A DNA stretch of 21,942 nt from a virus: the IMG/VR virus record IMGVR_UViG_3300044535_001629, positions 1-21,942 of that record, one strand, 5' to 3'. Numbering within the stretch: position 1 is the stretch's first letter; each line of letters opens with the position of its first letter. This document shows, in pieces, positions 1 to 19,669 of the stretch. Position numbers and translations under genes: made by a program. Under the pieces are notes generated by a model. The model did no database searches. It was not told where the DNA came from and saw only the letters and a list, made by a program, of their open reading frames with translations.

Positions 1-1840
1 TACAACCTGACCCATCTACAATAGTAACCGTATAATTACCTTCACCTAAATTAGTTAAGGTTGAACCTGTTGCACCATTTGACCAATTGTACGTGAATGG
101 TGGTGCCCCATCATAAATTTGAACTTGAGCGGTCCCGTCATTAGCCCCCGTACAATTTGTGGTTACAATACCTGTAATCAAATTACCTCCTGTTGTGATT
201 GAGAATCCTGTGGAAACGACACATCCGTCAGCATCAGTAACACTGATTGTATATGACCCAGCCGCTAAATCTGTATAAGTTACAGACGATAGTGGAGAAT
301 CTATTAGAGTGTCACCATTACTTAAAATATAATCTAAAGGTGCAGTATAACCCGTACCCACCGTAATAATCGCTTCGCCATTTAATTGTCCACATGTAGA
401 ACCTGTAGTCGAAGCGCTTATTGTAAATTTAGGTGTTGATGTTACGTTTACCTGTTCTGTATAAACACAATTACTACCACTACCTGAAATTGTTACAAGA
501 TATGTGTCTGTTTGTAGGTTTGAAAATGTGTAAGTTTGACTTTGGCTATTTTCTGATTGAACATTTCCTGACGTTTGTCCCGATAATGTAAAAACATAAG
601 ACTGATTAGTCCCACCAACGGTAACTTGTATTGCTCCTCCGTTTGCATTACAAACAGGATTTGTTGTTGATATATTTACAGTATCAAAACCTCCCGGTGT
701 TATTACGTTACCGCCAACAAAAATCTCACAATAACTTGCGTCTCTTACTAATACTTGGTAATTTCCAGCACTTAAGTTTGGAAGTGTGAACGTATTATTA
801 AGTGTATAACTTACATAACCAGTTGTTGCCGAATAATAAAAAGGTAAGGTTCCACCTGTCACTGTGAAAGTTAAAGAACCATCATTTTGAAAGCACGTAG
901 GTTGTGTTGCCGTTAAAAACCCTAAACCTAATGGGTCTGCAACACCAACGGTTTCGCTTTTGGTTGTTTGACATCCAAGACTATCCGTTACAGTACAACT
1001 ATAAACCCCTTGAGTTAATCCTGTAATAATTTGTGTTGTTTCACCATTACTCCAAGAGTACGTATATGGTCCTGTACCCGTAACACCTGTGACTGCCAAT
1101 TTACCCCAATTCTGAACACAGTTTGAAGTATTTACCTTCCAAAACCCAAAATCGACCGCAGTACTTGTACTTATAAGTGCATTTTCAGTATATGCGGTCG
1201 CTAAACCATTATCTACAACAATCGCATAATATATACCATCACCTAAGTCCGTAAAATTATGTGGAAAAACCGTCGCAACTTCTGTTGAGTCATAAACACC
1301 ATTTTTATATAATAATATGGTATATGGTGACCCTGACGTTGCAGCACTTACTTGTAAAAATCCGTTATTTACCCCGCAAGTGGTTCCACTCGCATTAAAT
1401 ATTTTAGCATCAAAACAACCACTCACAGTTACGTTGATGTACAATTCATTATTTTGTAATCCTTGTGAGTCGTTTAATCTAAAAACATATGTTCCACCCG
1501 AAAGCCCTGAAAACGTAATTTGTGTTGTCCCTGTTTGAGCACTTATTGTTGGGTCAAAAACATTATCAATCGTATAAGGTGGAACACCACCAATAGGATT
1601 AAATTGAATTGTTCCTGTTGCTGCAGAACATACCCCAGTTAATGAAAAACTATAGTCAAGAATTCCTTGATTACAATTTATAGTACAGGTTTGTCCTGTT
1701 GCAATGTATACACCTATTGATGAACCTGTATATGTTTCATCCAAACAAATACCTTCTCCAACGGATACACCTGTTCTTGTGAAACCACAACAATCCACAT
1801 ATGTATATACCCCGTTAGTTAAACCTGAAACACAAGCCAT
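1..1840 (-). CDS. SprB-repeat-like adhesin/tail-fibre protein, 3' end cut by window edge
   Basis: An open frame runs from ATG at 1838-1840 to the left edge without a stop, giving 613 codons plus one leftover base. It is therefore partial at its C-terminus. I do not recognise the whole protein. After a Cys-rich N-terminal segment (C3, C17, C18, C32, C52, C56, C71) it consists of about seven degenerate beta-rich repeats of 60-80 residues, each with a pattern of Cys, Gly-rich turn, aromatic-Tyr, 'G-x-Y-x-(V/I)-x-V-x-D-x-x-G-C'. The clearest are residues 240-290 (YSWSNGETTQ ... GVYSCTVTDSLGC) and 560-613 (YNWSNGATGS ... GNYTVTIVDGSGC). That pattern matches the SprB repeat known from the Flavobacterium gliding adhesin. 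It starts 8 nt after the stop of the 1119 aa tail gene, with an A-rich leader (TATAAAAA), so it is probably the last visible gene of the same operon. Inference: a virion surface or fibre protein that contacts the host. No signal peptide is seen. Confidence 0.85.
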   Translation of the reverse strand, partial: MACVSGLTNGVYTYVDCCGFTRTGVSVGEGICLDETYTGSSIGVYIATGQTCTINCNQGILDYSFSLTGVCSAATGTIQFNPIGGVPPYTIDNVFDPTISAQTGTTQITFSGLSGGTYVFRLNDSQGLQNNELYINVTVSGCFDAKIFNASGTTCGVNNGFLQVSAATSGSPYTILLYKNGVYDSTEVATVFPHNFTDLGDGIYYAIVVDNGLATAYTENALISTSTAVDFGFWKVNTSNCVQNWGKLAVTGVTGTGPYTYSWSNGETTQIITGLTQGVYSCTVTDSLGCQTTKSETVGVADPLGLGFLTATQPTCFQNDGSLTFTVTGGTLPFYYSATTGYVSYTLNNTFTLPNLSAGNYQVLVRDASYCEIFVGGNVITPGGFDTVNISTTNPVCNANGGAIQVTVGGTNQSYVFTLSGQTSGNVQSENSQSQTYTFSNLQTDTYLVTISGSGSNCVYTEQVNVTSTPKFTISASTTGSTCGQLNGEAIITVGTGYTAPLDYILSNGDTLIDSPLSSVTYTDLAAGSYTISVTDADGCVVSTGFSITTGGNLITGIVTTNCTGANDGTAQVQIYDGAPPFTYNWSNGATGSTLTNLGEGNYTVTIVDGSGC

Positions 1841-1848
1841 TTTTTATA

Positions 1849-4800
1849 TTAACAAATTACGTATCCGCTACCAGTGTTTTGGATGTTTATGTAGATAAGG
1901 TTTGAACCACTAACTACTGTGTGTGTATTGTAAGAACTAATTCCACAATATCCCGTATAAATACCACTATTGTTACCACTACCAAATACAATATTATTAA
2001 ATGTCGAATTTAATACCCCAAAGTCAATAACACTACCAACAACCGCAGAAGTTCCGTAAGGTTGGTAGTTTTGGAAAGTAGATGGTTTATTTCCAACGGT
2101 TTGTCCATTCAAATAAGTCCAAGCACCGCCATTAACTCTATAAACAAACGATACGTTTGCTGGTAACGCAACAGGTGCCCCAAAATAGAAATTCACTTCA
2201 GAGTAAACCGGAGTCGGTGTTGGCGTCGGTGTAGGTGTTGGCGTCGGTGTAGGTGTTTGTGTTGGTTCTGGTGGTGTACAATTTATATCTATATCAATAC
2301 CAATATTCAAATATAATGTACTAGCTGAGAAATTATCATAACAAGATGAATTACTTACAATTAAAGTATTACCAGCAAAGTAGTAATTTAATCCATAGTT
2401 ATATAACCCCGCAAGTTCTGTATCTAAAGCGTTAATTAATTGAGTCTGTGTTGGGTAATCATTAATACCGTAACCAGTGTAGAATTGTTCTTGTACTAAT
2501 ATTTGTGAGTCCAATCTACAATCAACATACCAATTAGAAACTATACTGTTTAAATCACACATGTTTTGTGTGAATCCGCTTTGAGTTAATAAACTTGAAA
2601 GTAATGATTGAATCATTTCTGAAGGTGAGCCTTGAATTGTGCAAGTAAGTGTTTGGTCTATACAATCATAAGCGAATGGTTGTCCTGTATATTTACAAGG
2701 AATACAAGCAACCGGAATAATTTGACAACCTCTTTGTCTTCTCCAAACGTACTTTTGTCTATGGAAAATAGAGTTTTCCATTTTTTGACCTGTCAACCAC
2801 AATGACGTACCAGGAACCATTTGTTCTAATAGTCTTTGCCAATAATCACCAAGACCCAAAGTATAATCAATCATTTTTTGGTAAGTGAAGTTGTTGTTTG
2901 GGATACCTATAGTTTGTTCAGATTGTAAGTAATTCCAAAATACAGATTGTAGGGTCGGATAACCTCCCGTTTTACCATCGCTTATAGTTTGTCTGTTTCT
3001 TACATTTATAAAATTGTTATAGAAACTTTGAGCGAACTCAAAGAAAGTTTTTTGTTTTGGTTTTGGGTCAATATGCGTCCAATCGACATTACCTGGATAT
3101 GGGTATGGTGCAGTTAGACCTGAATTAGGAATCGGATAGTCATACTTAACGGACATATCCCATACATCATATACCATACCTTGTCCCATATTCACGTATA
3201 GTTCAAGATTTTTTGAGTTGATTACTAATTTATCGTTTGATATTGAATAATCAACCCCATTAAAGTTATCGTTATTTTTTCTTGTTCCAACTTGGTCAAC
3301 CACCCAAGATTTTTGATTATCAGATACTCTTCTTAAAGTATACCCGACATTCATGTCAGGAAACTTTCTAAGACTATTCATGTAATCTTGCCCAAAATTA
3401 AATGGTTGTAACTTTGTTATTAAGTATGGGTTTGAACCACTAAATGATGAATTTTCAGAGTCGGTAACTTGAGCTGACCTATGTTTTGCGGTTTTTTCAA
3501 ACCAACCTGAACCTTTTTGAAAAAAGTTATCAGTCGTTTGTTGTGGGCTTTTTGGGTATCCCTCACTATCTACACCGTAATCCTGTAAAGTCGTATTAAC
3601 TAATTTAATTAAACCACTATTTGTATATCCTGTATATTGAACTCCTTGTATTTTAAATACATTAGTCCCATCTAAAACAGGTGTTGTTACATATTTTGTT
3701 CCACCTGATATACTAGCATATTCTTCATTAAATTTATCTACATTTATTTTAGCATCTGCAACATATACAATCTCATTAAACTCTAACAAAGCTTCAGGAG
3801 CTCCAATGAATCTCATAACATACTCTAAAGATTGTCTCGTACCTTTAGTTTTATACATATAAGCCGCATTCAATATTAAGTTTCTATAATATTGATAGTT
3901 TAACTCGGTTGGTGATGGTGTATTTTCTTGACCAGGATAAATTTGTTGTGGTTTTGGATTGAAGACTGATGTTAAAAAGTCTTCATTCGTATTTGGTGAA
4001 ATGTTTGGGTTTATACCTAATGTTTGTGCTAAATTAAAAAGTAATTGTGATGGAATATCATTACCCACTTGGTAATTAACCGATGTCATATTAGCTAAGC
4101 TGTCTATGAATTTTTTTACCTCATCAAAACTTCTACCATAAATTTGTAAAACTTTTTCAACTTTTTGGTCGGTAGTATCAAATTCTTTAAACGAACCTGT
4201 TATTAAGAACCTACTAATTAAATTTGTTTTATACTCGTCTAATCTTTCGGCTACTAACTGTAATCCATCAAGATATTCTGTAAATATACTTGATTGAATG
4301 TCTAAATTCCATACACCATCAATTGGCCAATTTAAAGTCCTATTATATTGAGTATACTTACCATTACTATCGTATTCAGGATAAGAAAACGTAGCACTAT
4401 ATTTTGGAGTTGTGTTTTGATTTAATAAGAATTTTTCAACCTCATCAAAATCATTTGTAAAAATTTGTTGAGTTTTATCATTATTTGGCCTGATAACTAA
4501 AGTCCTTATTGATGTTGTCAAACCACTAAACACATTACCTTTAACGGTTATAGTTAAGGTTCCTCCGGATAAATTTGGTGTTGGTACAATATCGGTTAAT
4601 GGGTATTCAGTTTGTAAATCACTATAATATAGAGCATAACTTTCGTACTCACTTGTGAGTGCTCTAATTGGACTTATTGGAAATGGTCTTACTTCTAAAT
4701 TTCTTTTCGCATTTACTGAATAGTCAATTTCAAATGGGTTTCTAAATAGACCCGTATCCATGTCAAATGTTGTCTCATCGTTTATAGAATCATAAACGAT

Positions 4801-5208
4801 ATTAAATGCAGTGTTACCTGTATATAAACTAGATTGTTGTTTGGTGTAAACCTCAATTGCTGCCGGAAAATTGTTAATTATTTTAATAGCGGTTGAAGAT
4901 ATCCTTTTGGCTAACGAACCGTAAAGTGAAAAACTTGTAATTTCCGATAAATCAAAGTTTGGATAAACTTTAAAGTTTTGTTCAATTATCGCTTTAGCCT
5001 CTTCAATACTACCTACATTAAGATTTTCTAATGTGTATGGTTGTGAAAATACACCAGTATCAAAATTTCTATTTGTTTTTTCATAAATGGCACTTGTGAA
5101 TTGAAAATTACCCTGCGTAAGTCCACCCGCATCAGTAATCTGAACTCCGACAAGATTATCTGCGAAAGTATTAGTTCCAATAGGTGGGTAAAATATTTTA
5201 TTTGCCAT
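1849..5208 (-). CDS. Large baseplate/tail protein with tail-protein-I (T4 gp7-like) region, Thr-Pro hinge and C-terminal beta domain
   Basis: This is an 1119 aa protein starting at ATG 5208, in a TAATG stop/start overlap with the 302 aa gene upstream. Residues 345-470 are helical and recall the P2 gpI / tail protein I family: 'VLQIYGRSFDEVKKFIDSL', then 'PSQLLFNLAQTLGI', then 'NLILNAAYMYKTKGTRQSLE', the family's typical R/KGT-containing helix. In T4 the equivalent wedge protein is gp7 (1032 aa), which pairs with gp6, so the size fits. Residues 828-897 hold seven cysteines (C828, C835, C838, C849, C856, C884, C897), unusual for a tail protein. Residues 983-1000 are Thr-Pro repeats acting as a hinge, followed by a beta-rich C-terminal domain (1001-1119). 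Inferred role: baseplate wedge scaffold carrying a flexible outward domain. The CDS is certain. The gp7/gpI assignment rests on motif resemblance and gene context, at roughly even odds. Confidence 0.9.
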   Translation of the reverse strand: MANKIFYPPIGTNTFADNLVGVQITDAGGLTQGNFQFTSAIYEKTNRNFDTGVFSQPYTLENLNVGSIEEAKAIIEQNFKVYPNFDLSEITSFSLYGSLAKRISSTAIKIINNFPAAIEVYTKQQSSLYTGNTAFNIVYDSINDETTFDMDTGLFRNPFEIDYSVNAKRNLEVRPFPISPIRALTSEYESYALYYSDLQTEYPLTDIVPTPNLSGGTLTITVKGNVFSGLTTSIRTLVIRPNNDKTQQIFTNDFDEVEKFLLNQNTTPKYSATFSYPEYDSNGKYTQYNRTLNWPIDGVWNLDIQSSIFTEYLDGLQLVAERLDEYKTNLISRFLITGSFKEFDTTDQKVEKVLQIYGRSFDEVKKFIDSLANMTSVNYQVGNDIPSQLLFNLAQTLGINPNISPNTNEDFLTSVFNPKPQQIYPGQENTPSPTELNYQYYRNLILNAAYMYKTKGTRQSLEYVMRFIGAPEALLEFNEIVYVADAKINVDKFNEEYASISGGTKYVTTPVLDGTNVFKIQGVQYTGYTNSGLIKLVNTTLQDYGVDSEGYPKSPQQTTDNFFQKGSGWFEKTAKHRSAQVTDSENSSFSGSNPYLITKLQPFNFGQDYMNSLRKFPDMNVGYTLRRVSDNQKSWVVDQVGTRKNNDNFNGVDYSISNDKLVINSKNLELYVNMGQGMVYDVWDMSVKYDYPIPNSGLTAPYPYPGNVDWTHIDPKPKQKTFFEFAQSFYNNFINVRNRQTISDGKTGGYPTLQSVFWNYLQSEQTIGIPNNNFTYQKMIDYTLGLGDYWQRLLEQMVPGTSLWLTGQKMENSIFHRQKYVWRRQRGCQIIPVACIPCKYTGQPFAYDCIDQTLTCTIQGSPSEMIQSLLSSLLTQSGFTQNMCDLNSIVSNWYVDCRLDSQILVQEQFYTGYGINDYPTQTQLINALDTELAGLYNYGLNYYFAGNTLIVSNSSCYDNFSASTLYLNIGIDIDINCTPPEPTQTPTPTPTPTPTPTPTPVYSEVNFYFGAPVALPANVSFVYRVNGGAWTYLNGQTVGNKPSTFQNYQPYGTSAVVGSVIDFGVLNSTFNNIVFGSGNNSGIYTGYCGISSYNTHTVVSGSNLIYINIQNTGSGYVIC
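2209..2277 (-). repeat. Tandem 18-bp repeat encoding the Thr-Pro hinge
   Basis: Two perfect adjacent copies of an 18-bp unit lie at 2216-2233 and 2234-2251 (plus strand ggtgttggcgtcggtgta), with degenerate partial copies on both sides. On the minus strand they encode alternating Thr and Pro (residues 983-1000 of the 1119 aa tail protein). The unit is a multiple of three, so gain or loss of a copy would change hinge length in steps of six residues without breaking the frame. Confidence 0.85.
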
Positions 5209-6116
5209 TAAGTAATAATATTTGTAAAGTTTTTACTAAAATCTATATTGTTACCTCTATCTTGTCTAACTTCATATAGTAACTCGTTAAAGTTATCTCT
5301 AACCTCAAATAAGTTGTATTGTTTATATATATTGTTGTTACTGTCGTATAATGTGTAAATTCCGTCTTCCATACTTTTTGTTTGGTTACCGTAAAGTGCA
5401 ATAGCCAATGTATCCAAATCATAATCTGCCATTTGAATATCGATAGTGATTGGATTAAAGAAAGTGTTAGTTACTATAATATTTTGATTTGGTTGACCAA
5501 TGAATGGTGTTGCCGTTGGTTTGTTTGTTGGTGAAGATGATGGTGACAAAGTACAAAATACTAAATCACTTCCCCCATCCACATATCGATATCTTATTGT
5601 TTTTTGTGATGAGTTAATTTGTTCTGTTACTATTGGTTCACAAAAGAACGATGATGTAACTATTCTATAAAAGTTAGGTATTTTACTACCATCATTATTT
5701 AAGTACTCAACTCTAAAACCAACTAATCCTTGATTTGTAAATTTATTTCTAAATTGTGATGGGACATCATTAAGATTTATGATAATACCTTTCACATTAG
5801 GTAATGCCGATAATACACCACAGTCCGTAATTGTTGTTCTTATTTCTGCCGGTTTAATGTATAATGTGTAAATCCCCTTCTTATCGAATTCGCTTGCAGG
5901 TAATTTTAAATTATAAAGTCCTCCTAGTATTTCAACTCCAGCATTTCCACCTGTATCAGCATTATGGAAATAAGGTGTTAAAATACTTTGTGAGTTTAAT
6001 TTTTTAAGTAAAAAATTATTTGTCACATCCCTACTTGGGGTGTAATGTAATATTATATCAACATCTGCTGGTGATACGTCTGAAGGTCTTACAATACCAT
6101 AAGTTCCTAATGCCAT
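5208..6116 (-). CDS. Unrecognised structural protein (302 aa) of the baseplate block
   Basis: This 302 aa protein starts at ATG 6116 with an A-rich leader (AAAATAAAAA), and its stop TAA overlaps the next ATG by one base (TAATG at 5206-5210). I do not recognise the family. The N-terminal half (about 1-190) is beta-rich with short charged stretches. Residues about 190-210 form a Ser/Pro/Thr-rich linker (SPSSSPTNKPTATP), and a second domain follows (about 213-302). The linker resembles in style the Thr-Pro hinge of the next protein. No signal peptide or membrane segment is seen. Its place between the PKD protein and the gp7-like protein, with tight coupling to the latter, suggests a baseplate or fibre-attachment component. 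It is the first gene after a 32-nt gap holding the AACTATTTAT motif, so it may start its own transcript. Confidence 0.85.
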   Translation of the reverse strand: MALGTYGIVRPSDVSPADVDIILHYTPSRDVTNNFLLKKLNSQSILTPYFHNADTGGNAGVEILGGLYNLKLPASEFDKKGIYTLYIKPAEIRTTITDCGVLSALPNVKGIIINLNDVPSQFRNKFTNQGLVGFRVEYLNNDGSKIPNFYRIVTSSFFCEPIVTEQINSSQKTIRYRYVDGGSDLVFCTLSPSSSPTNKPTATPFIGQPNQNIIVTNTFFNPITIDIQMADYDLDTLAIALYGNQTKSMEDGIYTLYDSNNNIYKQYNLFEVRDNFNELLYEVRQDRGNNIDFSKNFTNIIT

Positions 6117-6148: not shown

Positions 6149-7291
6149 TTATGCAGTATTAATTTTAAAGAAACCGTAACCGTATCTTTCTAAATCTCCA
6201 ATATTATCAACTTCACCTAACCTTTCAATCGATTCAAAGGCGCTATATTTTCCTCTTTCAACATACACATCAGTTTGAATTTGGGGTGCCATAACAAAAT
6301 CAAGTAATTGTTCGTTTTTAACAATCATGGACGTATCAAAATCATTAGCAGTTAAACCATTACTATTCATAACATAGAATGTTTTTCCATTAGGTAAATC
6401 GTAATAAGTTATTGCTTCAATAGTATATCCCGTTATCCCATCGATTATTGAATCTATTTTACCATAAAACTGATTGTTTTTTGTAAAAATGTACCCAACA
6501 GTAAATGGATTTGACCCATATCTTTTTAAGTCTTGTATTTTTGATTTTGTAAATCCTGAAACAACAAATGGTGTTGTTGTCCAGTTAGATGAAGCTTGGT
6601 ATGATGGGTTATTATTACTATCTAATGGATAAATGTAGTTATATGCGATAGGTGTCCCATTCCAACTTCCCCCTTGTGGTGTGAAAGATATAAACCCATT
6701 TGGGTTTGGTGTAAACGCTGGGGCTAAAGGTATTGTTACAGGTTTAGATATAGTTGTTAAACCAAATGGGTTTGAGCCTGATAATGTTATCGTATAATTA
6801 CCTGCATTTTGATATACATGAGTGATTTGTGTGCCCACCAATTGCTGAATCGATGAATTGTCTCCCCAATCAACCGCGTAAGTACTAAAATCTAAATAAC
6901 TTAAAGTAAAATCTCCTGATGTGTTATAAAGAGTTAATGAATATAAATTAAGTGGTGTTGTTGCCGAATATAAAAAATTGGTAACCACATCTTTTTGACA
7001 CAATAAACCATCAAATTCTGAATAATACCCTACATCATTATACGTTTGTGTTAACATAATCGGTATTGTCAAACCTGTAAGTAGTGAAGAACCATTTGTC
7101 CCACCACTTAAAATTTGTGACATACCTGAATATATTGCAAAATTCTGAGTTACTGAAGTAAAAGGTGTTGAATTAGTAGGGACACCATTACTTGGTAAGT
7201 CGTAGTAAGTTTTTGCAGTATAAACTAAATTAAAGATGTCACTCGATAATACTTCAGGTGATATTTTATAACTATATTCTTCAGCTTCCAT
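6149..7291 (-). CDS. PKD-domain structural protein (380 aa)
   Basis: This 380 aa protein starts at ATG 7291, in a TAATG overlap with the stop of the 280 aa gene. Residues about 118-187 form a PKD/Ig-like domain: the hallmark 'DWGDNSS' (141-147) is followed by 'HVYQNAGNYTITLSGSNPFG' (158-177). The flanking regions (1-115 and 190-380) are not recognised. The C-terminal part has repeated aromatic and Gly-containing beta stretches and ends 'LERYGYGFFKINTA'. No signal peptide or transmembrane segment is visible. PKD domains in phage virions usually decorate exposed surfaces and help in weak carbohydrate or surface adhesion, so a peripheral baseplate or fibre role is the likely reading. The gene ends at TAA 6149-6151, just before the 32-nt gap with the repeated regulatory motif. 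Confidence 0.88.
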   Translation of the reverse strand: MEAEEYSYKISPEVLSSDIFNLVYTAKTYYDLPSNGVPTNSTPFTSVTQNFAIYSGMSQILSGGTNGSSLLTGLTIPIMLTQTYNDVGYYSEFDGLLCQKDVVTNFLYSATTPLNLYSLTLYNTSGDFTLSYLDFSTYAVDWGDNSSIQQLVGTQITHVYQNAGNYTITLSGSNPFGLTTISKPVTIPLAPAFTPNPNGFISFTPQGGSWNGTPIAYNYIYPLDSNNNPSYQASSNWTTTPFVVSGFTKSKIQDLKRYGSNPFTVGYIFTKNNQFYGKIDSIIDGITGYTIEAITYYDLPNGKTFYVMNSNGLTANDFDTSMIVKNEQLLDFVMAPQIQTDVYVERGKYSAFESIERLGEVDNIGDLERYGYGFFKINTA

Positions 7292-8133
7292 TATGGGTTC
7301 ACGTATTCGTACCAGGTTATAGCTTCATTCGCTGTTTGACCAACACCCACCCTAACTTGTGCCGGCGATTCTCTATATATTTTATATTCATAAGTGCTAT
7401 AATCTAACACTACCGAATAGTAAAAGAATTGTTCTTTATCAAAATTAAATTTAACAGGTCCTGAAAATCCAGATTGTGGTTGATTAATCATTCTAACAAA
7501 TTGACCTATTTTAGCATTGAAGAATTTACAACTCATATAAAATTTTGTTCTCGATATATATGACTTATTTCTTAACCAATAAAAGAAGAACCCTTCTTTA
7601 TCTTGTCCAACATAATCTAAAATGTATTTTGGTTTTTTAACCATGACGTTTGTAGGATTTAATGCTGGTCCTATTGTTCCCGGTTCCTTTACACCTTGTT
7701 GTGTTGGTAAAATTACACTAAACATTATCTTTTGACTTTCGGCAATTTTTGTATCATAAAAGTCTAACTTGAAAAACGAACCTTTAAAAGAATTTGAAAA
7801 ATAATAAATCTCAGAATCTGTAAAAGTTGCATACTGATAATCATCCAACCAATCACCTATACTTGGTGCGTTTGTGTTAAATGTTGTGGGTAAGTTTGGA
7901 TTAAAGAAATTAAAAACATAATTTATTTCCGTTTTGTCAGGATTTGAATCCCATGGTGCATGTGCGAATCTACCAATCTCAAAGTCTTCAATACCATTTA
8001 TTAGTTGTTGAACAACATTTGTTTGAAACTCTTCAACACCTTCCTCTCTACCTTCCATATCAAAACTAATATTAATTGGAATATTAATTTCAGTGTCATT
8101 TGGATTTAATTTATATCTATAATAATTACTCAC
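7291..8133 (-). CDS. Unrecognised structural protein (280 aa), GTG start
   Basis: This 280 aa protein has a GTG start at 8131-8133, overlapping the end of the 583 aa gene as GTGAGTAA (8 nt). The next in-frame Met is 25 codons downstream, and this overlap has the same geometry as the ATGTCTAA overlap upstream at 9870-9877, which supports the GTG start. I do not recognise the family. The protein is rich in Phe, Tyr and Asn and probably beta-sheet-rich (for example 'FFKLDFYDTKI', 'FFYYSVVLDYSTYEYKIY'). It has no signal peptide, membrane segment or enzyme motif that I can see. Coupled translation with its neighbours implies a fixed stoichiometric role with the 583 and 380 aa proteins, probably in the outer baseplate. 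Confidence 0.85.
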   Translation of the reverse strand: MSNYYRYKLNPNDTEINIPINISFDMEGREEGVEEFQTNVVQQLINGIEDFEIGRFAHAPWDSNPDKTEINYVFNFFNPNLPTTFNTNAPSIGDWLDDYQYATFTDSEIYYFSNSFKGSFFKLDFYDTKIAESQKIMFSVILPTQQGVKEPGTIGPALNPTNVMVKKPKYILDYVGQDKEGFFFYWLRNKSYISRTKFYMSCKFFNAKIGQFVRMINQPQSGFSGPVKFNFDKEQFFYYSVVLDYSTYEYKIYRESPAQVRVGVGQTANEAITWYEYVNP

Positions 8134-9877
8134 AGTCGTCTGTTGTAGGTTGGTTTATAATTGTTGTAACAATTTCATCAGTTCTTTGCATTGGTTTTTG
8201 TAAAAACAAAACTTGTTTATACGGGTAATGAGCCCCATTAACAAACGGATAATCTAAACCATTACCATCGGAATCTATAAACCCAAAACTATATATGTCT
8301 CTCCAAATAAAGGATTCATTATATTTGGAATACCACGCATAACTTGGTATTCCATCAACATTATTTTTGGATGACGCTTCTATATAATTACTATAAACTC
8401 TAATTGGTATTGAGTGATGTGGTTCATAAACATATCCGCTTGGTAAGTTTAATGGTGAATTATCAGAAAAATACGAGCTATTGAATGAGTACTTATGATA
8501 CATTCGTGAAATCACATATTCTTTTTGTTCGATATAATTGTATTCACAAAAATCTCCCTTTATTGTTGAACCTGTCGTTAAAAAATCGTTATAGTAAAAT
8601 TTTTGACCACTTCCTGCAGGTTGTTCATAATTAGACAAAGGTATATTATCTTTGTTATTGGTTGATGTGTGGTTCCACCATGTGTCGACAGAATTTGATA
8701 GGAAGTTAAATCCCCAACCAATATCAATACCCGTAGGTTGGTTGTTTGAATTTATTGCCGGTGGGTTAAACCATCCCATATACCCCCTTTGTATAAATGA
8801 TAAGTATAGTTCGGTAATTGGGTTTCCGTTATTATCCTGTAATCCCGCAATTTGTATATCTTTATTTAAAACAAAACTAAAAGTTTTAGACCCTTCTTTA
8901 ACCGAAACTCTTTGTGTATTATTAGGTGTAAGTGCCGAATATTCTATCTTAGATTTAGTGTTAAATGGTATGTTTTCAAACCCCGCCTGTGTTATATTAA
9001 ACTCATCGTTAGTTGATAATACTTTATGTAATCTGATGTAATAAATTGATTTTGTTTCGGCGCTGTTTACAATGTTTGTAATCCTTTTAAAAGTCCCATT
9101 TAATCCTGTTGTGGTTTGGTTTGTTGGGTATTTTAAGTTAAATACTGAAAATACTTTTTCTTCTGAACGATACTGTCCATCACCTAACCCAAACACTTCA
9201 AAAACTTTTTTACCACCAATACCGTTAGGTAATGTTGGCATATTAATTTCAATAAACTCACCAACATTAAGGTTATGCTGCACACCACAATAGAAAAATA
9301 AAACTTTTTTACCATTTATTACTCCTGTACTTAAAATAAATGGGATTCCATCACCTGAATTAAAATTAACCGTCACATTAAACTTTTCAGATGTATAAGC
9401 CATAGGTTGTGTTGTATCACTACTATATGGGTATGTTAGATTCATCATCCAATTATAAGATGTCGCACTTTTTGTCACAAAACTTCTATGCCCCGTAACC
9501 GCAGTGTATCTTACAAATGTAAATTCATCATATTGTGGATAACCTTCCCATGGGACATTAGGGTTTGGTGGTGTGTTTAAGGTTGCATTTGCAATAGCAT
9601 TAGTATAATAAAGAATGTTTCTATATGGTGTGTAAGTGGTTTTACCTGAGACCGTATTTTGAAATATGTTTGTTAATTTTCCAGATATTCTAAATGTATC
9701 ACTATCTTGTCTTTCAGTTTCAAACTGGTCTGTTAAATTTACAGTTATTGACCTATCACCTTCAACCATAGTTCTTCTATCACCAATAAGTGGTGGTTGA
9801 ATCCAAATGTCTTTGTCGGTATTGCCCGCAAATTGTTTAGAACCTAAAACTATTTGAATTTCGTTTTGATTAGACAT
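8126..9877 (-). CDS. Unrecognised structural protein (583 aa) downstream of the giant tail protein
   Basis: This 583 aa protein starts at ATG 9875-9877, overlapping the stop of the giant gene upstream as ATGTCTAA. I do not recognise the family. It is Asn-, Tyr- and Phe-rich and appears mostly beta. Features to note are an N-terminal segment with a basic/acidic turn (LIGDRRTMVEGDRSITVNL), a Trp/Gly-rich stretch near the middle (RGYMGWFNPP, IGWGFNF), and a C-terminal region with 'YEPHHSIPIRVYSNYIEA'. No hydrolase or lyase motif, membrane segment or signal peptide is evident. From its position after gp6 and the giant protein, it is probably a baseplate wedge or peripheral component. Role is inference. 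Confidence 0.87.
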   Translation of the reverse strand: MSNQNEIQIVLGSKQFAGNTDKDIWIQPPLIGDRRTMVEGDRSITVNLTDQFETERQDSDTFRISGKLTNIFQNTVSGKTTYTPYRNILYYTNAIANATLNTPPNPNVPWEGYPQYDEFTFVRYTAVTGHRSFVTKSATSYNWMMNLTYPYSSDTTQPMAYTSEKFNVTVNFNSGDGIPFILSTGVINGKKVLFFYCGVQHNLNVGEFIEINMPTLPNGIGGKKVFEVFGLGDGQYRSEEKVFSVFNLKYPTNQTTTGLNGTFKRITNIVNSAETKSIYYIRLHKVLSTNDEFNITQAGFENIPFNTKSKIEYSALTPNNTQRVSVKEGSKTFSFVLNKDIQIAGLQDNNGNPITELYLSFIQRGYMGWFNPPAINSNNQPTGIDIGWGFNFLSNSVDTWWNHTSTNNKDNIPLSNYEQPAGSGQKFYYNDFLTTGSTIKGDFCEYNYIEQKEYVISRMYHKYSFNSSYFSDNSPLNLPSGYVYEPHHSIPIRVYSNYIEASSKNNVDGIPSYAWYSKYNESFIWRDIYSFGFIDSDGNGLDYPFVNGAHYPYKQVLFLQKPMQRTDEIVTTIINQPTTDDCE

Positions 9878-12800
9878 CCTGATTAAAAATATATTTAGTT
9901 ATGTATCTGTTCATTACACTTTTACCTTTAAATAAACCAAAATAGAAATGGTATGGTGCCCCAACAACAAATTTATCGTTTTGTCCCGGTGGGAATGTTG
10001 CGGTATTTCCATTACTATCCGTATTATAGATATATCCTTTCTTACCGTAATTTGTCGTGTTAAAGTAATTTGAAAATGGTGCCTGATAAAAACTCATCGT
10101 TTGGTATTTTTGTTTATAAAAACCTAAACCTTGTAATCCTGTTTGCCATTCGTTTTCATCAGAACCAAATATGGTATTAGTGTTCGCTAACTTCCATAAA
10201 TAAAATGGAACTTCCTGAGTTTTAGGGTAACCAAAATAATTTGTTAGTGTTGGTGTAAATGTTGTAATTCCAGGAGTTAGTTTAATTCGGTTTTCGGTAC
10301 TACCCGTAAAGAAAACACCAACTAACGCATCCCCTGAACCGGCAACGTATAACGAATCATCATTATAAACGTCATCACTAAATCCTTCGACACCATATTC
10401 TGAATTAATACTGAACAATTGTGCAATATCACCATCAATTCTATCCTCACTTCTTGAGAACATTCTGTTGATTGATGCATCTCCAATACCTAACATTTGA
10501 CCTAAGAAATTGGAATTTATCAATCGTGAAATAATAAACAATTGTAATAAATCTGAGGTATCATTAAACGATGTAGATTGGAAGGTTTCCATTAGGTACC
10601 CTTCAAATTGTGGGTTAGCACATATTTCTTTTGTAAATTGGTCTCTCGGACCTAAATCCATTATTGTTGTTGGGAAATATAAGTTCCTTTCATTCATACC
10701 TCCATATCCGGCAGGTACAAATGGTGTTAATGGTACAAGTTTTCTTTTTGGCATTTGACCAACAAATTGGCTACCTGTGTAAGGTGTTGCCCGATAATAC
10801 AATCCATTTGTTTTTCCTTCGGCATAAAATACAGGTCCTTGACCAGGTCTAAAGACGCTATCATAACTACCACAGAATTGATATTTTTTGGGTTGTCCTG
10901 TAATATTAAAAATTGTTTTTTTCTTAAACGAGAACATATATAAAGAACCGTTTACCCAATTATTCTGAAATACTTGTGAAAACACACCCCTACAAGCCCC
11001 AAACATCATTCTAAATCTAGCCTTCCACTCAATAAAATATTTAATATCCTTAGGTATTGAAATAATTAATGGTTTGTCCACAAAATAATAACACCCACCA
11101 CTTACTCGTTTATTATCTAAATTTCCATCACAAGGGTCATTAACACCAAAACTTGTACCCGTACCACTATAACATTCTAAAAGTGTTAAGTTCTCACATT
11201 GTAAAGAACCGATAACAGCATCTGTAATGGCGTTAGAAGTGTCACCAGTTAAATCCGCTAAATTATTAGTCGTATCTGTTGGTTGTAATGAAACAAAAGG
11301 AGCCACCGTTCCATTACCATCTTCACCAACCAAATACACCGCAAAATTATCATTAAGGTGTAAAGAATATGATGTATTACCACTTGTTTGTGTTTTTGTT
11401 GATGTTGGTAACCTATCGGACCTTAACACCATTCTATTATTATTTGTAATTGTTACATTAGCATTTAACTGTAAATGGTACGCCGGTGACATTAATCTTG
11501 CTTGACTATTAGGGTTAGCAATAGGGTTAAAAGGTGTTCCAGCAGGTATACTGGAAGTTAATAGAGTACCCCCTTCAAAATTACCTTGTCCGATAAATGC
11601 GTTAGTTATGTAATTATACTGAAAGGTAAAATTATTAACAGTGTTATTACTAATAGCCCCTCCGTTATTTGAATAATGACCTAAATTATAACTGTCACCA
11701 TTAAATGATTTATGAGTTGTTTGGCTTTTATCAGTTGAGTTATAGTAGTAAACTGAATTATTTGTGAATGAAGTAAACTGAGTTGGGTCCACAGTAAATC
11801 CATATGGTTCAAAGTATAGGTTAGCTCCATTATATGGTGAGGTTGTGGTATTATCTGTAACTTTATGTGTTTGTGGTGTCACATATGAACTATACCAAGG
11901 ATACATACCTTGTCCAAATGATTGTGGACCCGAATTTGGTTGTATAGGTATATTCAAATGATATATACCCTCTACCGTAGGTCCATTTGATAATGCGTAA
12001 CCAAATAATTTTGAGAGGTCATATTTTATTTTTTGTTTCTCAGTGTAAGGGTCAACCCCTCTACTAAGAATTAAAATTTCCATTTCTAAAAATCCATCTA
12101 AGAATTTCCACGGAGTGATATAATCATTATGATTAAATAATGGTGGTAATCCATAATTATATGTTTGTGTTTTTCTAAACAAATACTGATTTAATAAACC
12201 AGTTGTTCCACTTGTTATACCTGAAAATTGCTGAGTGGTGGCACCTGTAATAAGTTGGAAGTACTCGACCCCAGCTTTAAATTTATATTCTTTTCCGTTT
12301 TCAGTGATTTTTAATTTTAAAGTCCCACTTTGTACGTTACCGTTTGTATCAACCCAACTAAATTGTTTGTTATATAAACTGTTTGGACTATAAGGCGTTG
12401 AACCTGTTATATTATTTGTATTATACTGATTAATTGTCGTTAACCCTGTAGTGTTTGGGTCATTGATTGCACTTAAATCTGTAAAGGTTAATAATTGTCC
12501 TGGAGGCATATTTGATATGGTTCCTGAATCACATAACATAACAAGAACACTATCATCAAAGGTTGTTGATGGGTCAACCGTATTAGTAAGCGGATTAGTA
12601 TTATTTACAGTAACTTTGATATGATTTAACCCGTCAAAATATCTTTGTCTTACGTTTGCTAAATTCATTGATTGAGCTAAATGAACGTCATATCCTATTG
12701 AAGGTATTCCCCCTTGTACTAAAAATTGCGTCACAGGAACTTTTAATAGTTTATCTAAGTTGTTTCCTGAATTCAGTACTTGATATCCTGCATATGCTTG

Positions 12801-14768
12801 TCTAATCGCATTATTATAACTTTCAGGACTACTAGATGTTGATGCATATGAACTATTATATGTTTCAAATGAAGATATAGAATTTAAATCCGCCAATGGA
12901 CTAAAATTACTTGCTGATATAGTAATAGTTGCACTTTGTTGGAATGATGATTCATCAGGGGGTAATGCAACATCTTCACAAGGACATGCTTCACAATCAG
13001 GATAAGACATCATAGGTAAAGAAATTCTTTTAAATGGATTTTCTTTATCTAATGGGGTTATGTTTTCTTGTTTACAATCTTCTTTTTTCTTTTTAGCTGA
13101 TATCGCGGCGATAATTAAACAAATTCCATATATAACTACGTTTATTATCCATATTATAAGATTTATTATTATTCGAATTACAGGGTATAATAATGCTAAA
13201 ACATGTAATATTATAATTAAAGACACAAAAACAGGTGTTAAAATTGTAACAAGTAAGTTTAATATGAATACCAAGAAATCAAAATTTCTAACACCATCGT
13301 TAACCGGAAACTTATTAACCGTATTAACACAAGTCCTATCTGTAATATCTTTAATACCTAAATGTCGTAATCTATTTGAACCCCATTTCCATCTATCAAC
13401 TAATCCAGATATGGTATAAACTTTATTATAATTAAATTGGTAGAACCTATCTTCACAATCAATAGCCTCTTGTATCATTTGTTGGCCTATTGTTGTTGTT
13501 GGGTCCCCGTATTCAGTCCAATCTAAACTAAAGGCGTATGAATATAACTGAGCGTCCGTATCGGTTGGCTCGTCATTATTATTAGATGACCAACCCCATT
13601 CTTTAACATTAGGAACTAAATAATCACCACGCATAATACTATTTTCCATACCAGCCTCGTTCTGATATTGAATTCTAAATCTGTATTTACCTTTTGTTGG
13701 GATTCCTACTGATGGGTCATTTGACAATACTTGTTCCCCGAATTCATTAGTTGTGACATAATCTAAGTTCATAGGAACTTCAATTAACCACGTTCCGTTG
13801 TCATCAATTACTTTACCACCTTCAGGTAATGTGTATTGTTCTAAAACAGGTCTTCCATCATTATCGTAATTAATTGTTTGTCTAACCGCTAAAATTCTAC
13901 CAGGAGCGGTAACTAAACTACATAGATTACCTGTTTCTTTTCCGGGTTTACAATTTGTTTTCAAATAGTCTTCATCGGCCGATGAAAAAATTGACCCCAT
14001 AAAAACAGCGTGAGGTTTAATATCAATTCCAAAATCTCTTAAATCAAAATCCGCCCTTGTAATCCCAACATTACATAATTCGGTTTCACCCCAAAATGAA
14101 GTAACATCGACATCTTGTTTTATATTAACAATTTGTGGTAAGGAATTTAAATCTGTTGATGATTTGAATTGGTCTCCATCAAATTGCTCAGCTGTAGCTA
14201 ATCCTGCCCTTATTAAATCTGCAGGTCTTAGAGAAAAACAACCAATGTTTGATAAATCTAAATCTAAAATTAATGTTTGAATTCCAAGTGGTGCTCCGAT
14301 TATCATAAAGTCGCCACTTTCATTAGTTTTAACGGTAAACTTATAATACTTTTCGTATACCTCTAAAACTTCAGTTCTTGTTAAAACATCATTTTTATCA
14401 GGAAAAGTTCCAGTTGCTGTATGCCCATCATATTCTTTTACATAAGGTAATAGGTTATATCTATAACCATCTTCATTTTTTTGTTCTACGTTTTTATAAG
14501 GATAAAGTGTGGATATTACCGGGTCATTTTCATCTATAGCATCAAGAGGAATAAATATGGATACATTTGCGTTTGGGACCCCATATCCACCATTAACTAT
14601 AACCCTACCAGCAACTACACCATAATCAGCACAAAATCTCGTATAAACGTCTTCTTGTCTTAATTTTAAAGATAGTATTTCTAAAAAATCAAAATCCTGA
14701 GTGACGTTAATTCTTATACTTCTTTCTTTTTTTCCCGGTGTTGATTTTATCCTATAACTTTTGGTCAT
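9870..14768 (-). CDS. Giant tail/baseplate protein with regulatory-like beta domain and internal membrane-type hydrophobic segment
   Basis: The protein is 1632 aa from ATG 14768. A GTG six bases further upstream (14774) would give 1634 aa, but ATG follows a short A-containing leader and is preferred. I do not recognise the whole protein. Numbered from the GTG, residues 52-172 resemble a carboxypeptidase-regulatory/CNA-B-like beta sandwich ('VAGRVIVNGGYGVPNANVSI' and 'TNESGDFMIIGAPLGIQTL'). Residues 499-560 are almost uninterrupted Leu/Ile/Val/Phe, enough for two or three membrane helices, and are followed by KKKK and a Cys cluster (C594, C597, C599). The remaining 1000 residues are Asn/Thr/Tyr-rich and probably beta. 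It follows gp6 after a 65-71 nt gap holding the AACTATTTAT motif and overlaps the 583 aa gene by 8 nt. It is probably a major tail or baseplate component, perhaps able to engage the host membrane. It could alternatively fill the position of T4 gp7, which directly follows gp6. Confidence 0.93.
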   Translation of the reverse strand: MTKSYRIKSTPGKKERSIRINVTQDFDFLEILSLKLRQEDVYTRFCADYGVVAGRVIVNGGYGVPNANVSIFIPLDAIDENDPVISTLYPYKNVEQKNEDGYRYNLLPYVKEYDGHTATGTFPDKNDVLTRTEVLEVYEKYYKFTVKTNESGDFMIIGAPLGIQTLILDLDLSNIGCFSLRPADLIRAGLATAEQFDGDQFKSSTDLNSLPQIVNIKQDVDVTSFWGETELCNVGITRADFDLRDFGIDIKPHAVFMGSIFSSADEDYLKTNCKPGKETGNLCSLVTAPGRILAVRQTINYDNDGRPVLEQYTLPEGGKVIDDNGTWLIEVPMNLDYVTTNEFGEQVLSNDPSVGIPTKGKYRFRIQYQNEAGMENSIMRGDYLVPNVKEWGWSSNNNDEPTDTDAQLYSYAFSLDWTEYGDPTTTIGQQMIQEAIDCEDRFYQFNYNKVYTISGLVDRWKWGSNRLRHLGIKDITDRTCVNTVNKFPVNDGVRNFDFLVFILNLLVTILTPVFVSLIIILHVLALLYPVIRIIINLIIWIINVVIYGICLIIAAISAKKKKEDCKQENITPLDKENPFKRISLPMMSYPDCEACPCEDVALPPDESSFQQSATITISASNFSPLADLNSISSFETYNSSYASTSSSPESYNNAIRQAYAGYQVLNSGNNLDKLLKVPVTQFLVQGGIPSIGYDVHLAQSMNLANVRQRYFDGLNHIKVTVNNTNPLTNTVDPSTTFDDSVLVMLCDSGTISNMPPGQLLTFTDLSAINDPNTTGLTTINQYNTNNITGSTPYSPNSLYNKQFSWVDTNGNVQSGTLKLKITENGKEYKFKAGVEYFQLITGATTQQFSGITSGTTGLLNQYLFRKTQTYNYGLPPLFNHNDYITPWKFLDGFLEMEILILSRGVDPYTEKQKIKYDLSKLFGYALSNGPTVEGIYHLNIPIQPNSGPQSFGQGMYPWYSSYVTPQTHKVTDNTTTSPYNGANLYFEPYGFTVDPTQFTSFTNNSVYYYNSTDKSQTTHKSFNGDSYNLGHYSNNGGAISNNTVNNFTFQYNYITNAFIGQGNFEGGTLLTSSIPAGTPFNPIANPNSQARLMSPAYHLQLNANVTITNNNRMVLRSDRLPTSTKTQTSGNTSYSLHLNDNFAVYLVGEDGNGTVAPFVSLQPTDTTNNLADLTGDTSNAITDAVIGSLQCENLTLLECYSGTGTSFGVNDPCDGNLDNKRVSGGCYYFVDKPLIISIPKDIKYFIEWKARFRMMFGACRGVFSQVFQNNWVNGSLYMFSFKKKTIFNITGQPKKYQFCGSYDSVFRPGQGPVFYAEGKTNGLYYRATPYTGSQFVGQMPKRKLVPLTPFVPAGYGGMNERNLYFPTTIMDLGPRDQFTKEICANPQFEGYLMETFQSTSFNDTSDLLQLFIISRLINSNFLGQMLGIGDASINRMFSRSEDRIDGDIAQLFSINSEYGVEGFSDDVYNDDSLYVAGSGDALVGVFFTGSTENRIKLTPGITTFTPTLTNYFGYPKTQEVPFYLWKLANTNTIFGSDENEWQTGLQGLGFYKQKYQTMSFYQAPFSNYFNTTNYGKKGYIYNTDSNGNTATFPPGQNDKFVVGAPYHFYFGLFKGKSVMNRYITKYIFNQDV

Positions 14769-14781
14769 TTGCACTTTTAAA

Positions 14782-14839: not shown

Positions 14840-16678
14840 TTAGGAGAAATCTACGGTTGAAAGATTTTTAACATATACTCGTATGTCTTTATTATCAAAA
14901 CGTATTTGATAAATTTGAGACGGTTCAGCGTAAATATTATCATCAATTAATCTAATCTCACGAGTCGCTTTATTAACATATGCTTGTGATGTTTCTGATG
15001 TTGAATATTGTCCACCCACTAAGTTAAAAACTTGTAAATTTGATAAACTTATCACTCCGGCAGTATTTTGAATTAATCTTCTTACATCCGATACGTTTAC
15101 GTTTTGACCCATATCACGATTTCCAGGTGTCATATAATTCGAAACCTGATTAATAATTTCAGTAATTACTTGTCCTCTATTAACATTAGATTCTACGACC
15201 ACGTAAATGTCGAAAGCCAAATCAATAACTTTAGCCACATCAATTTGTATATAGTCATTAATCATCCTATATTTAGATAGGTAAGTTGCTAAGTTTGATT
15301 TAAGGTGATTTGATACCGTTTGTGTTAATTTACCATTCTCGTCGTAAGCCAAAATTTGAACTGTGATTTTATTATCCAACTCAGTTATCGCTACTTTTGC
15401 TGGTGCTCCAAATTTACCAGGCATTGTATCAATTAATGATTTATAGTCATTTACGGTTACCGCCCTTTTTTGTGCCGCAAAATTAAAAGTGACCATGTTT
15501 CTTACTTCTTCTGTTGTTGGTGGGTTAGCTCCTCCAATTGCGGCGGTAACGTTATTAACCGTTAAAGAATCAACTACATTTGAATTAATCGATATTGATG
15601 GTCCGTTCACGGCAAAATCAATTGTCCCTACTTGATTAATAACACCGACACCAACATTTGACGCTAAACCCCCACCCGTTCTGTATTGTATAAAAAGAGT
15701 TGTGTTTGGTTGAACCGTTAACCCTAATCCAATATTGTTTTGGTAATTAGCTAAGTCTAAGTTTATCCCTAATTTTGCAAAGTTTGCTAATTGTATATTT
15801 GGAGTTGTTGTTCCTCCACCAAATTGGACTTTTAAGAACCCTTCTGCGGTATATTCACTAATAAACCTGTTATCAGTTTTAATATATTTTCCAACTTTAA
15901 CTCCAGCGTTATCAACGGGTTTTGTTGGGTCTTCTATAAATACAGTATCCTCAGCTAGAGCATCAACTTCATACCATTTATTTGTTGATGTTGCGAATTC
16001 CGTATAGTCCGGAACATTTGGATAATTAGTTCCGTCTTTTTGGATAATTGAATTAATACCTAAAACGTTTCTTTCAGGTAAAAAGAAATTAAAGAAAGGA
16101 ACCACATCAGATGGATTAATTACTCTTTTAAAAACTTTGGTTGTTCCATTAACCACAACCTCTTGTTTTGTAATTACATAATTAATAATTTTTTGGTTAG
16201 CATCAAAAGTTGGTACTTTAGTTCTATTAACTTCACCTTCTTGATTATATTGATTGGCGAAGTCAATGTCATAAATGGTTTCGAATGTGTTACCTCCACC
16301 GTTAAATTGTGACCCTGCCCTTAAAATTCCTAAATATCTAAAATCTTCAGCGTCCCCTAATGGTGGGACTGTAATTGAAATATTAACCACAGCAACTGAT
16401 GGTCTGTAACCTGGTATTTTTAAACCATAAGTTCTAGCAATATTAAAAATTGATGACTTCTGTTGGGCGTATTGTAATACAGTCTCTTGTATACTCCTGT
16501 CAATATGGTAATGTAAATTATCGGCGACCGCAGCATTTAAATCCATTAAAACAGAGAATACAGACGCATCATTAAAATTTTGAACGAGTTCAGGATAATA
16601 CTGTTTAGTGTAATTTATTAAACCATCTCTGATTGATTCAAAATCCCTATCGGTATAGTTAATTTTATTATTAGCCAT
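14840..16678 (-). CDS. gp6: Baseplate wedge protein, T4 gp6 / gpJ family
   Basis: This 612 aa protein starts at ATG 16678, one base after the gp25 stop. The N-terminus (TDRDFESIRDGL; 'ASVFSVLMDLNAAVADNLHYH' truncated here to its key residues D38, L44, D46, N54; 'AQQKSSIFNIARTYG') has the helical pattern of T4-type gp6 proteins. Residues 331-347 (QYRTGGGLASNVGVGVI) match the Gly-rich 'GG...N' motif of Baseplate_J proteins. Residues 401-420 (AAQKRAVTVNDYKSLIDTMP) match their conserved 'RAVT..DY..L' motif. A C-terminal alpha/beta domain follows (about 425-555). In T4 the protein is 660 aa and forms, with gp7, the heterotrimeric wedge core that joins into the inner baseplate ring and changes shape on sheath contraction. 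The immediate neighbour gp25 is its known structural partner, which supports the call. Confidence 0.92.
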   Translation of the reverse strand: MANNKINYTDRDFESIRDGLINYTKQYYPELVQNFNDASVFSVLMDLNAAVADNLHYHIDRSIQETVLQYAQQKSSIFNIARTYGLKIPGYRPSVAVVNISITVPPLGDAEDFRYLGILRAGSQFNGGGNTFETIYDIDFANQYNQEGEVNRTKVPTFDANQKIINYVITKQEVVVNGTTKVFKRVINPSDVVPFFNFFLPERNVLGINSIIQKDGTNYPNVPDYTEFATSTNKWYEVDALAEDTVFIEDPTKPVDNAGVKVGKYIKTDNRFISEYTAEGFLKVQFGGGTTTPNIQLANFAKLGINLDLANYQNNIGLGLTVQPNTTLFIQYRTGGGLASNVGVGVINQVGTIDFAVNGPSISINSNVVDSLTVNNVTAAIGGANPPTTEEVRNMVTFNFAAQKRAVTVNDYKSLIDTMPGKFGAPAKVAITELDNKITVQILAYDENGKLTQTVSNHLKSNLATYLSKYRMINDYIQIDVAKVIDLAFDIYVVVESNVNRGQVITEIINQVSNYMTPGNRDMGQNVNVSDVRRLIQNTAGVISLSNLQVFNLVGGQYSTSETSQAYVNKATREIRLIDDNIYAEPSQIYQIRFDNKDIRVYVKNLSTVDFS

Positions 16679-16679
16679 A

Positions 16680-17144
16680 TTATATGTTAATTATAACGAA
16701 TTGTCGACTACCAAATGCCCTTGCATCATTTGTATAATCAATTTTTATTTTTGCACTATATTCTGCGGTGTTTGCTCCCGGTATACGATAAATACTTGCC
16801 TGACCCAATAATTCATAATCCAATTGTCCTGCAGTTTCACCGGCATCAGTATAGGATTCTACAGTAATACTATTAATAGTAACATTTGGTATGTATTTTG
16901 AAATTTGTTCTTCTATTTCAGATTTAATCTCTTCAAAGGTTGCTCCATCAAGAGGTTCAAAAATATACTCATACAATCTAGTACCAAAATCAGGTAAAAA
17001 ATATCTTGACCCTCTTCTAGTTAATAATAAATGAACAATATTTGCCCTGATTTCTTCATCCGTAGTTTCAGTTAATTTTAAATAATTACCCTTTTCACTT
17101 TGTATGAATGGAAAATTTATACCATATGTAATTCCGTTAGCCAT
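16680..17144 (-). CDS. gp25: Baseplate wedge protein gp25 (GPW/gp25 family)
   Basis: This 154 aa protein starts at ATG 17144. T4 gp25 is 132 aa, so the length fits. The family core is visible: 'EEIRANIVHLLLTRRGSRYF' (residues 30-49) then 'LPDFGTRLYEYIFEPLDG' (50-67), including the conserved 'DFG' plus aromatic/Phe-Glu-Pro motif, followed by a helix (TFEEIKSEIEEQISKYIP) and a terminal beta region. Despite the old 'lysozyme-like' label of the family, the role is structural: gp25 attaches to gp6 in the wedge core and nucleates sheath assembly. It is the first gene after the nrdA terminator and a candidate promoter motif, so it probably leads the structural operon. Its stop is separated from the gp6 ATG by one nucleotide. 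Confidence 0.94.
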   Translation of the reverse strand: MANGITYGINFPFIQSEKGNYLKLTETTDEEIRANIVHLLLTRRGSRYFLPDFGTRLYEYIFEPLDGATFEEIKSEIEEQISKYIPNVTINSITVESYTDAGETAGQLDYELLGQASIYRIPGANTAEYSAKIKIDYTNDARAFGSRQFVIINI

Positions 17145-19659: not shown

Positions 19660-19669
19660 GTTATAAAAT

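Follow-up and report, generated by a model that had tools for sequence, protein, structure and literature searches.

Why a virus should carry a protein built of SprB repeats, which are known from surface adhesins, and what such a protein does for a phage were the questions raised by the window analyzed here, i.e., the whole stretch of 21,942 nucleotides covering positions 1 to 21,942 of IMG/VR virus record IMGVR_UViG_3300044535_001629. The protein is probably a virion baseplate arm, composed of a fixed-length SprB-type Ig/FN3-like shaft, an adapter acting as a joint and an optional, exchangeable tip, and its gene is referred to below as the arm gene for that presumed role.

Seven SprB repeats at the window edge

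The arm gene occupies the first positions of the window. The residue limits of repeats R1 to R7 follow the numbering of L012 and L042, two entries for a single contig bearing the complete gene.

2 to 1,840, minus strand: SprB-repeat arm gene, first 613 aa; ATG start, 3' end past the window edge, no stop inside
1,661 to 1,840, minus strand: Cys-rich N-terminal head, residues 1-60
1,415 to 1,660, minus strand: repeat R1 (residues 61-142)
1,160 to 1,414, minus strand: repeat R2 (residues 143-227)
932 to 1,159, minus strand: repeat R3 (residues 228-303), the most conserved of the seven (same-position identity of 62% on average)
689 to 931, minus strand: repeat R4 (residues 304-384)
431 to 688, minus strand: repeat R5 (residues 385-470)
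182 to 430, minus strand: repeat R6 (residues 471-553)
2 to 181, minus strand: repeat R7 (residues 554-624), truncated by the window edge

The edge reading frame matched the Pfam SprB model PF13573 at 60.5 bits (E 1.2e-16, cut-off 28) over six stretches, the best at residues 562-591, and a scan of the whole record with the same model gave six separate matches in one frame, two of which exceeded the cut-off. An HMM built exclusively from bacterial repeats (953 rows) scored 237 bits on the window protein, with a match in each of the seven repeats, while none of 1000 shuffled copies matched at E<=10; its rows had been gathered and aligned through a phage-derived HMM, which makes this test not fully independent. 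The SprB repeats proposed by the sequence-only reading are thus real, given the PF13573 score, the match in every repeat and the outcome of the shuffling. That reading had estimated about seven degenerate repeats, correctly, since the repeat limits give seven, with a mean pairwise identity of 25.9% inside the window protein; the two stretches it singled out as the clearest (residues 240-290 and 560-613) are R3 and R7. Among relatives, PF13573 exceeded its curated cut-off in 7 of 7 proteins and in 5 of 6 further, mostly diverged ones, the remaining protein (L093) giving no match.

IMG/VR holds hundreds of relatives of the arm protein, from which three overlapping sets were drawn: the best 80 of 433 relatives found with the family alignment, the best 80 of at least 592 found with a diverged alignment, and the best 80 of 365 found with the adapter only. 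Four contigs occurred in both the first and the second set (L099/L191, L100/L218, L101/L196 and L102/L212), and those of the adapter scan were largely shared with the earlier scans. Seven repeats were counted in all 72 complete proteins of the first set, once six ORFs open at the 3' end, L054 (an upstream gene) and L094 (open at the 5' end, five repeats visible) had been left out. The 78 complete proteins of the second set all carried seven repeats before the adapter (raw counts gave seven matches in 77 of them and eight in L220, the eighth scoring 5.8 bits and lying past the adapter). Loci selected by the adapter alone displayed seven repeats as well (80/80). Pooling these best-ranked relatives yielded exactly seven repeats in 134 of 134 distinct R1-to-adapter sequences, including a few with the adapter cut by the contig end (e.g., L197), which formed 63 clusters at 70% identity and 15 at 50%.

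Bacterial SprB-repeat proteins contained from 4 to 43 repeats in 56 complete ORFs; these loci were the best 80 of at least 567 matches to the phage alignment, and hence no random sample of adhesins. Their titles mostly named Bacteroidota, with isolated ones naming Chlorobiota, Rickettsiales or an uncultured bacterium. The constant number of seven in phages may be due to shared ancestry no less than to a constraint on length, because the baseplate block described below looks vertically inherited.

Repeats were sorted by their position in the array. In 31 phage proteins below 70% identity to each other, repeats from the same position were 48.7% identical versus 26.5% for different positions, and a repeat and its best partner shared their position in 2929 of 3255 comparisons, the most diverged pairs giving 733 of 931. 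In a tree of the phage repeats with 150 of 1452 non-redundant bacterial repeats, R1 to R4 each formed one clade (31/31), R6 a clade of 31 plus one bacterial repeat, while R7 and R5 grouped 29 and 26 of their 31 members, respectively. A clade of 245 leaves contained all 217 phage repeats along with 28 bacterial ones. The most similar pair of repeats within a protein had a median identity of 67% in bacteria (n=90) versus 40% in phages (n=31). The phage array is old and stable as far as repeat comparisons can tell, because of this sorting by position and of the low similarity within proteins compared to bacteria. A recent repeat expansion, as in bacterial adhesins, was ruled out by the constant seven together with the sorting by position.

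The interpretation given by the sequence-only reading, which includes capture from host adhesins, was borne out in part. Kinship with bacterial repeats, nearly all from Bacteroidota, was recovered; the capture itself is plausible and unproven, since in size-matched draws the share of proteins in which bacterial repeats lay closer than phage repeats from other positions ranged from 0.42 (R2) to 1.00 (R4). These values would fit the capture of an already diverged array rather than the multiplication of a single repeat in the phage, with the reserve that domains of 75 residues cannot settle the origin.

No isolate in INPHARED carried the arm gene, the only match being the metagenomic record LR756502 (642 kb). 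In that huge-phage record (L188, LR756502.1), the ORF at 6885-11897 encoded a protein of 1670 aa that lacked the adapter and contained SprB-type repeats, 14 of them clear and 2 very weak. This is a further use of the repeat, in a different number. In phages bearing the arm gene, a second repeat family was observed downstream, its proteins being about 530 aa long, starting with MGLLSGNSCNIIT or similar and containing two SprB-type repeats (L061:19942, L030:21595, L080:20902, L085:18586 and others). It accounted, with its fragments, for 25 of the 27 repeat-bearing ORFs devoid of an adapter; this second SprB-repeat ORF is of the MGLLSGNSC type and not of the type starting MANVVFSS.

Baseplate gene block and shared adapter

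The arm gene closes a block of genes on the same strand, at the head of which the gp25- and J-type baseplate genes are found in the window.

16,680 to 17,144, minus strand: baseplate wedge gene, gp25-like
14,840 to 16,678, minus strand: baseplate wedge gene, Baseplate_J / T4 gp6-like
9,870 to 14,774, minus strand: 1634-aa gene of the conserved block
8,126 to 9,877, minus strand: 583-aa gene of the conserved block
7,291 to 8,133, minus strand: 280-aa gene of the conserved block
6,149 to 7,291, minus strand: 380-aa gene with a PKD domain
5,208 to 6,116, minus strand: 302-aa gene of the conserved block
1,849 to 5,208, minus strand: partner gene, 1119 aa (about 980 aa in many relatives), directly upstream of the arm gene
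4,711 to 4,890, minus strand: weak partial adapter-like stretch of the partner gene, residues 107-166 (16 bits)
2,275 to 2,673, minus strand: adapter domain of the partner gene, residues 846-978
1,852 to 2,274, minus strand: Pro-Thr linker and C-terminal tip of the partner gene

Among the 160 loci of the first two sets (four contigs being counted twice), gene order was identical in 159 of 159, with the arm gene last, in agreement with the sequence-only reading, which had placed it at the end of a baseplate operon. A homologue of the 1119-aa partner lay upstream on the same strand in all 159 eligible loci; the 302-, 380-, 280- and 583-aa genes were present in 158 of 158 loci and the 1634-aa gene in 155 of 158. 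The 14 longer contigs examined, with lengths of 61 to 326 kb, all carried Baseplate_J, at 57-83% identity. Profile comparison (hhalign) related the J family to the J protein of Flavobacterium phage immuto (99.9%) and to T4 gp6 (53%), and the partner family to i161, a large protein of the immuto tail operon (84.4% probability, 163 columns). No other pair exceeded 2.3%, the runs being weak for gp25 and J (one row each) and for the 1634-aa gene (ten rows). T4 equivalents of the block genes were thus retrieved by profile comparison for J only, and weakly (53%), which speaks against the baseplate-arm reading.

Several observations were made around the block. In L007 (16982-20884) and relatives, the arm gene was followed by a gene for a long collagen-like protein (133 bits), and this in turn by ORFs starting with MKIFVQIASYRDPE, glycosyltransferase-like by eye. 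Two Baseplate_J matches (G017:C1:23327-25150 and G008:C1:113557-115374) contained one TAA each, maybe an end effect, and the gene picked upstream of the arm gene in L215 was only 500 aa long, about half of the usual length, perhaps through a break or a frameshift. In the window, two ORFs resembling by eye the large and small subunits of ribonucleotide reductase were located between a helicase and the baseplate block (17230-20617).

Secretion features separated phage from bacterial proteins. A hydrophobic N-terminus, as seen by a hydropathy proxy and not a signal-peptide predictor, was detected in 2 of 117 phage proteins versus 47 of 56 bacterial ones. Models of the type IX sorting domain were applied to five full-length phage proteins selected among more than 100, and none of the five matched at E<=0.1. 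All eight bacterial controls, taken from 25 complete ORFs shorter than 1900 aa, exceeded a sorting-model cut-off, with the best stretch C-terminal in 7 of them. The gene could be thought to encode a non-virion protein produced in infected cells, e.g., an adhesin displayed on the host surface, as its repeats are kin to secreted bacterial proteins and as the window fragment displayed a sub-threshold internal type IX sorting match (11.3 bits against a cut-off of 23, residues 394-456). The 115 phage proteins without a hydrophobic N-terminus, the five full-length proteins without a sorting match and the membership in the baseplate block make this very hard to credit. The description as a phage structural-operon protein therefore stands, based on block membership and on features that are those of phage structural genes and not of secreted adhesins.

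The complete arm gene was present in L012 (contig 3300002835_001114), where it encoded 1005 aa; the window protein was identical at 612 of 613 residues to the first part of L042, from the same contig. In the L012 protein, a Cys-rich head of 60 aa preceded R1 to R7 (71-86 aa each), which were followed by the adapter (about 138 aa), then by a short Pro-Thr stretch and finally by a tip of 230 aa. The adapter occurred in both the arm protein and the upstream partner, followed in each by linker and tip. In the first set it scored above 60 bits in 72 of 79 upstream proteins (the 79 include a wrong gene, from L054), and in the second set in 72 of 80. As candidates for a known family, HMA (9 of 24 members, best 0.0041) and DUF389 (1 of 24, 0.0031) were set aside as scattered weak matches, and PHROGs gave matches in at most 2 of 24 members.

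The full-length model was weak (pLDDT 63.4), whereas a model of R1 to adapter built from 44 sequences was good (83.2), with seven beta-sandwiches and an alpha/beta adapter, the placement of the domains relative to each other not being fixed by the model (pTM 0.36). The Aureispira grappling hook protein GhpA was the top PDB match of both models in Foldseek (E 8.7e-19, TM about 0.2). VIA-align gave fibronectin-type arrays at Z 9.4-10.7, GhpA (9flv) at Z 9.7 (362 aligned, rmsd 28.0) and, at Z 9.6 (156 aligned, rmsd 10.4), the central fibre of phage lambda (8xci), for which another comparison reached Z 10.0 (160 aligned, rmsd 7.6), such scores being common for the Ig/FN3-like fold, with many fibronectin-type rows alike. 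These searches were dominated by the Ig array and hardly probed the fold of the adapter itself. The best match among viral models (BFVD/UniProt) was A0A6J5LD72, from an uncultured Caudovirales phage.

Ig-like domains projecting from the capsid, as in a Hoc-like head decoration protein, would be another setting for such an array. Hoc-like PHROGs matched the core proteins (phrog_3945 in 12 of 44, best 4.3e-9; phrog_2973 in 7 of 44, best 4e-11) and the window ORF (E 0.0041), and the sequence profile matched two solved decoration proteins in the PDB; its best solved match, however, was a putative neck whisker protein (E 3.8e-5), so that Ig-like models do not indicate the head alone. The constant place at the end of the baseplate block and the adapter common to the upstream block protein also oppose a head location, which appears quite improbable.

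Tips, repeats and host contact

Both ends of the arm protein varied among relatives. The head before R1 ranged from 6 to 1,441 residues and was missing, replaced or extended; a von Willebrand A domain (65.4 bits) was observed in the head of one arm protein (L096:8369-13171). A tail of at least 60 aa after the adapter was found in 38 of 152 proteins, none that long being present in the other 114, and these tails fell into 12 BLAST clusters, of which two consisted mainly of linker. The tip of L013 was a Fib_succ_major domain. L034 and L044 had cores 95% identical and tips without BLAST match to each other; among pairs with 60-97% identical cores, tips matched in 36, were both present and unmatched in 11 and were single-sided in 161. 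Tips appear to move between the slot of the SprB gene and that of the upstream gene, because the upstream gene of L017 carried a tip resembling a SprB-gene tip (36% identity). A diversity-generating retroelement as the source of tip variation gained no support, RVT_1 being absent from all 8 records of one search and all 13 of another, though these records may be fragments. Two very similar proteins, L009 and L010 (1108 and 1112 aa), differed in the length of the Pro-Thr linker after the adapter, the coding repeat of which may be a length-variable microsatellite.

In the baseplate-arm reading, the phage would be contractile-tailed, judging by its gp25- and J-type genes, and gene position suggests that the arm protein is a virion component on the baseplate. 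The seven SprB-type Ig/FN3-like domains would form an elongated shaft of fixed length and the adapter a joint, through which the neighbouring proteins may dock mutually or onto a common partner. In some phages, a Pro-Thr linker and an exchangeable tip past the adapter would meet the cell surface, with a putative receptor-binding role. A role as tip holder is not general, because 114 of 152 members lack a tail of 60 aa or more; in the tip-less phages, the larger part of the sample, contact could occur via the shaft, the N-terminal head, the upstream protein or downstream fibre genes.

The same abundance of arms without a longer tail means that something else in the arm could bind, and the SprB-type repeats themselves might do so, either to polysaccharides of host adhesins or to the adhesin itself, as the sequence-only reading had suggested. 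The unusual conservation of R3 and the occurrence of SprB repeats in surface adhesins would agree with it. A host-range surface usually varies, which is opposite to the constant number and order of repeats; in these phages it is the heads and tips that vary, and binding by the repeats is considered unlikely. Passages of PMC13288928 describe gliding genes as important for infection by flavobacterial phages and name SprB and RemA as possible receptors, and part of PMC7345892 makes a similar suggestion on gliding adhesins and phages, in line with binding by the repeats.

Shine-Dalgarno-like motifs preceded 5% of the 223 starts considered in 20 selected family loci, against a background of 9%. They were seen before none of 11 starts of the window and none of 23 of immuto, before 2% of 49 starts in five Bacteroidota contigs, and before 62.5% of 32 in T4. 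Their scarcity fits a Bacteroidota host and is no proof of it; from sequence evidence the host is probably a member of this phylum. A more daring proposal, which we regard as a long shot, is that phages captured an entire, already diverged seven-domain stretch of a Bacteroidota adhesin, froze it as a baseplate arm of fixed length and exploit the kinship to engage the moving adhesin machinery of gliding hosts. If so, the virion would be retained at the cell surface, or transported over it, until the tail fires.

Returning to the baseplate arm, an uncultured phage clade with contigs up to 326 kb would possess, as a standing part of its baseplate block, a protein built from a repeat of Bacteroidota surface adhesins. 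The constant number of domains, the domain common to the neighbouring gene and the exchangeable tips offer a testable layout for changing host contact, and the arm gene can be used as a marker gene for the clade.

Comparison with known systems

SprB and other SprB-repeat proteins of Bacteroidota belong to the same repeat family (PF13573, over the curated cut-off). Unlike them, the phage proteins lacked a hydrophobic N-terminus and a type IX sorting domain, and had seven diverged repeats instead of a variable number (4-43) of often similar ones. Aureispira GhpA (PDB 9flp, 9fly, 9flw and others) is likewise an Ig-like array in a Bacteroidota surface protein; it belongs to a bacterial hook protein about 5000 residues long, with 14-20% identity and TM-scores of about 0.2 to the arm models. 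The FN3/Ig-like central fibre of phage lambda (8xci) likewise contains tandem beta-sandwich domains, a likeness suggested by the structure models.

Among viral proteins, A0A6J5LD72 (annotated 'SprB repeat', 714 aa) aligned along the entire core at 32% identity and is very probably a member of the arm-protein family, so that the 'SprB repeat' label already exists in phages as a database annotation. Literature searches, with most subscription journals outside their coverage, returned no study of A0A6J5LD72 or of SprB repeats in phages among the matches listed, and those on virion proteomics nothing on the arm-protein family among the matches listed.

The nearest published parallel is the BACON protein of crAssphage, described in sections of PMC6949934 as a tail-associated tandem-repeat protein, with eight repeats stable in one lineage and an array distinct from bacterial BACON domains. 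Both are arrays of a Bacteroidota-type Ig-like repeat kept in stable number. Unlike the crAssphage protein as presented in those sections, the arm protein is built of seven repeats of the SprB family, shares its adapter with the neighbouring gene, has linkers and exchanged tips, and is encoded alongside baseplate genes of the gp25 and J types. The arm would be a second example, beside crAssphage BACON, of a Bacteroidota-type Ig-like repeat serving in the tail of a phage, a location that is predicted here.
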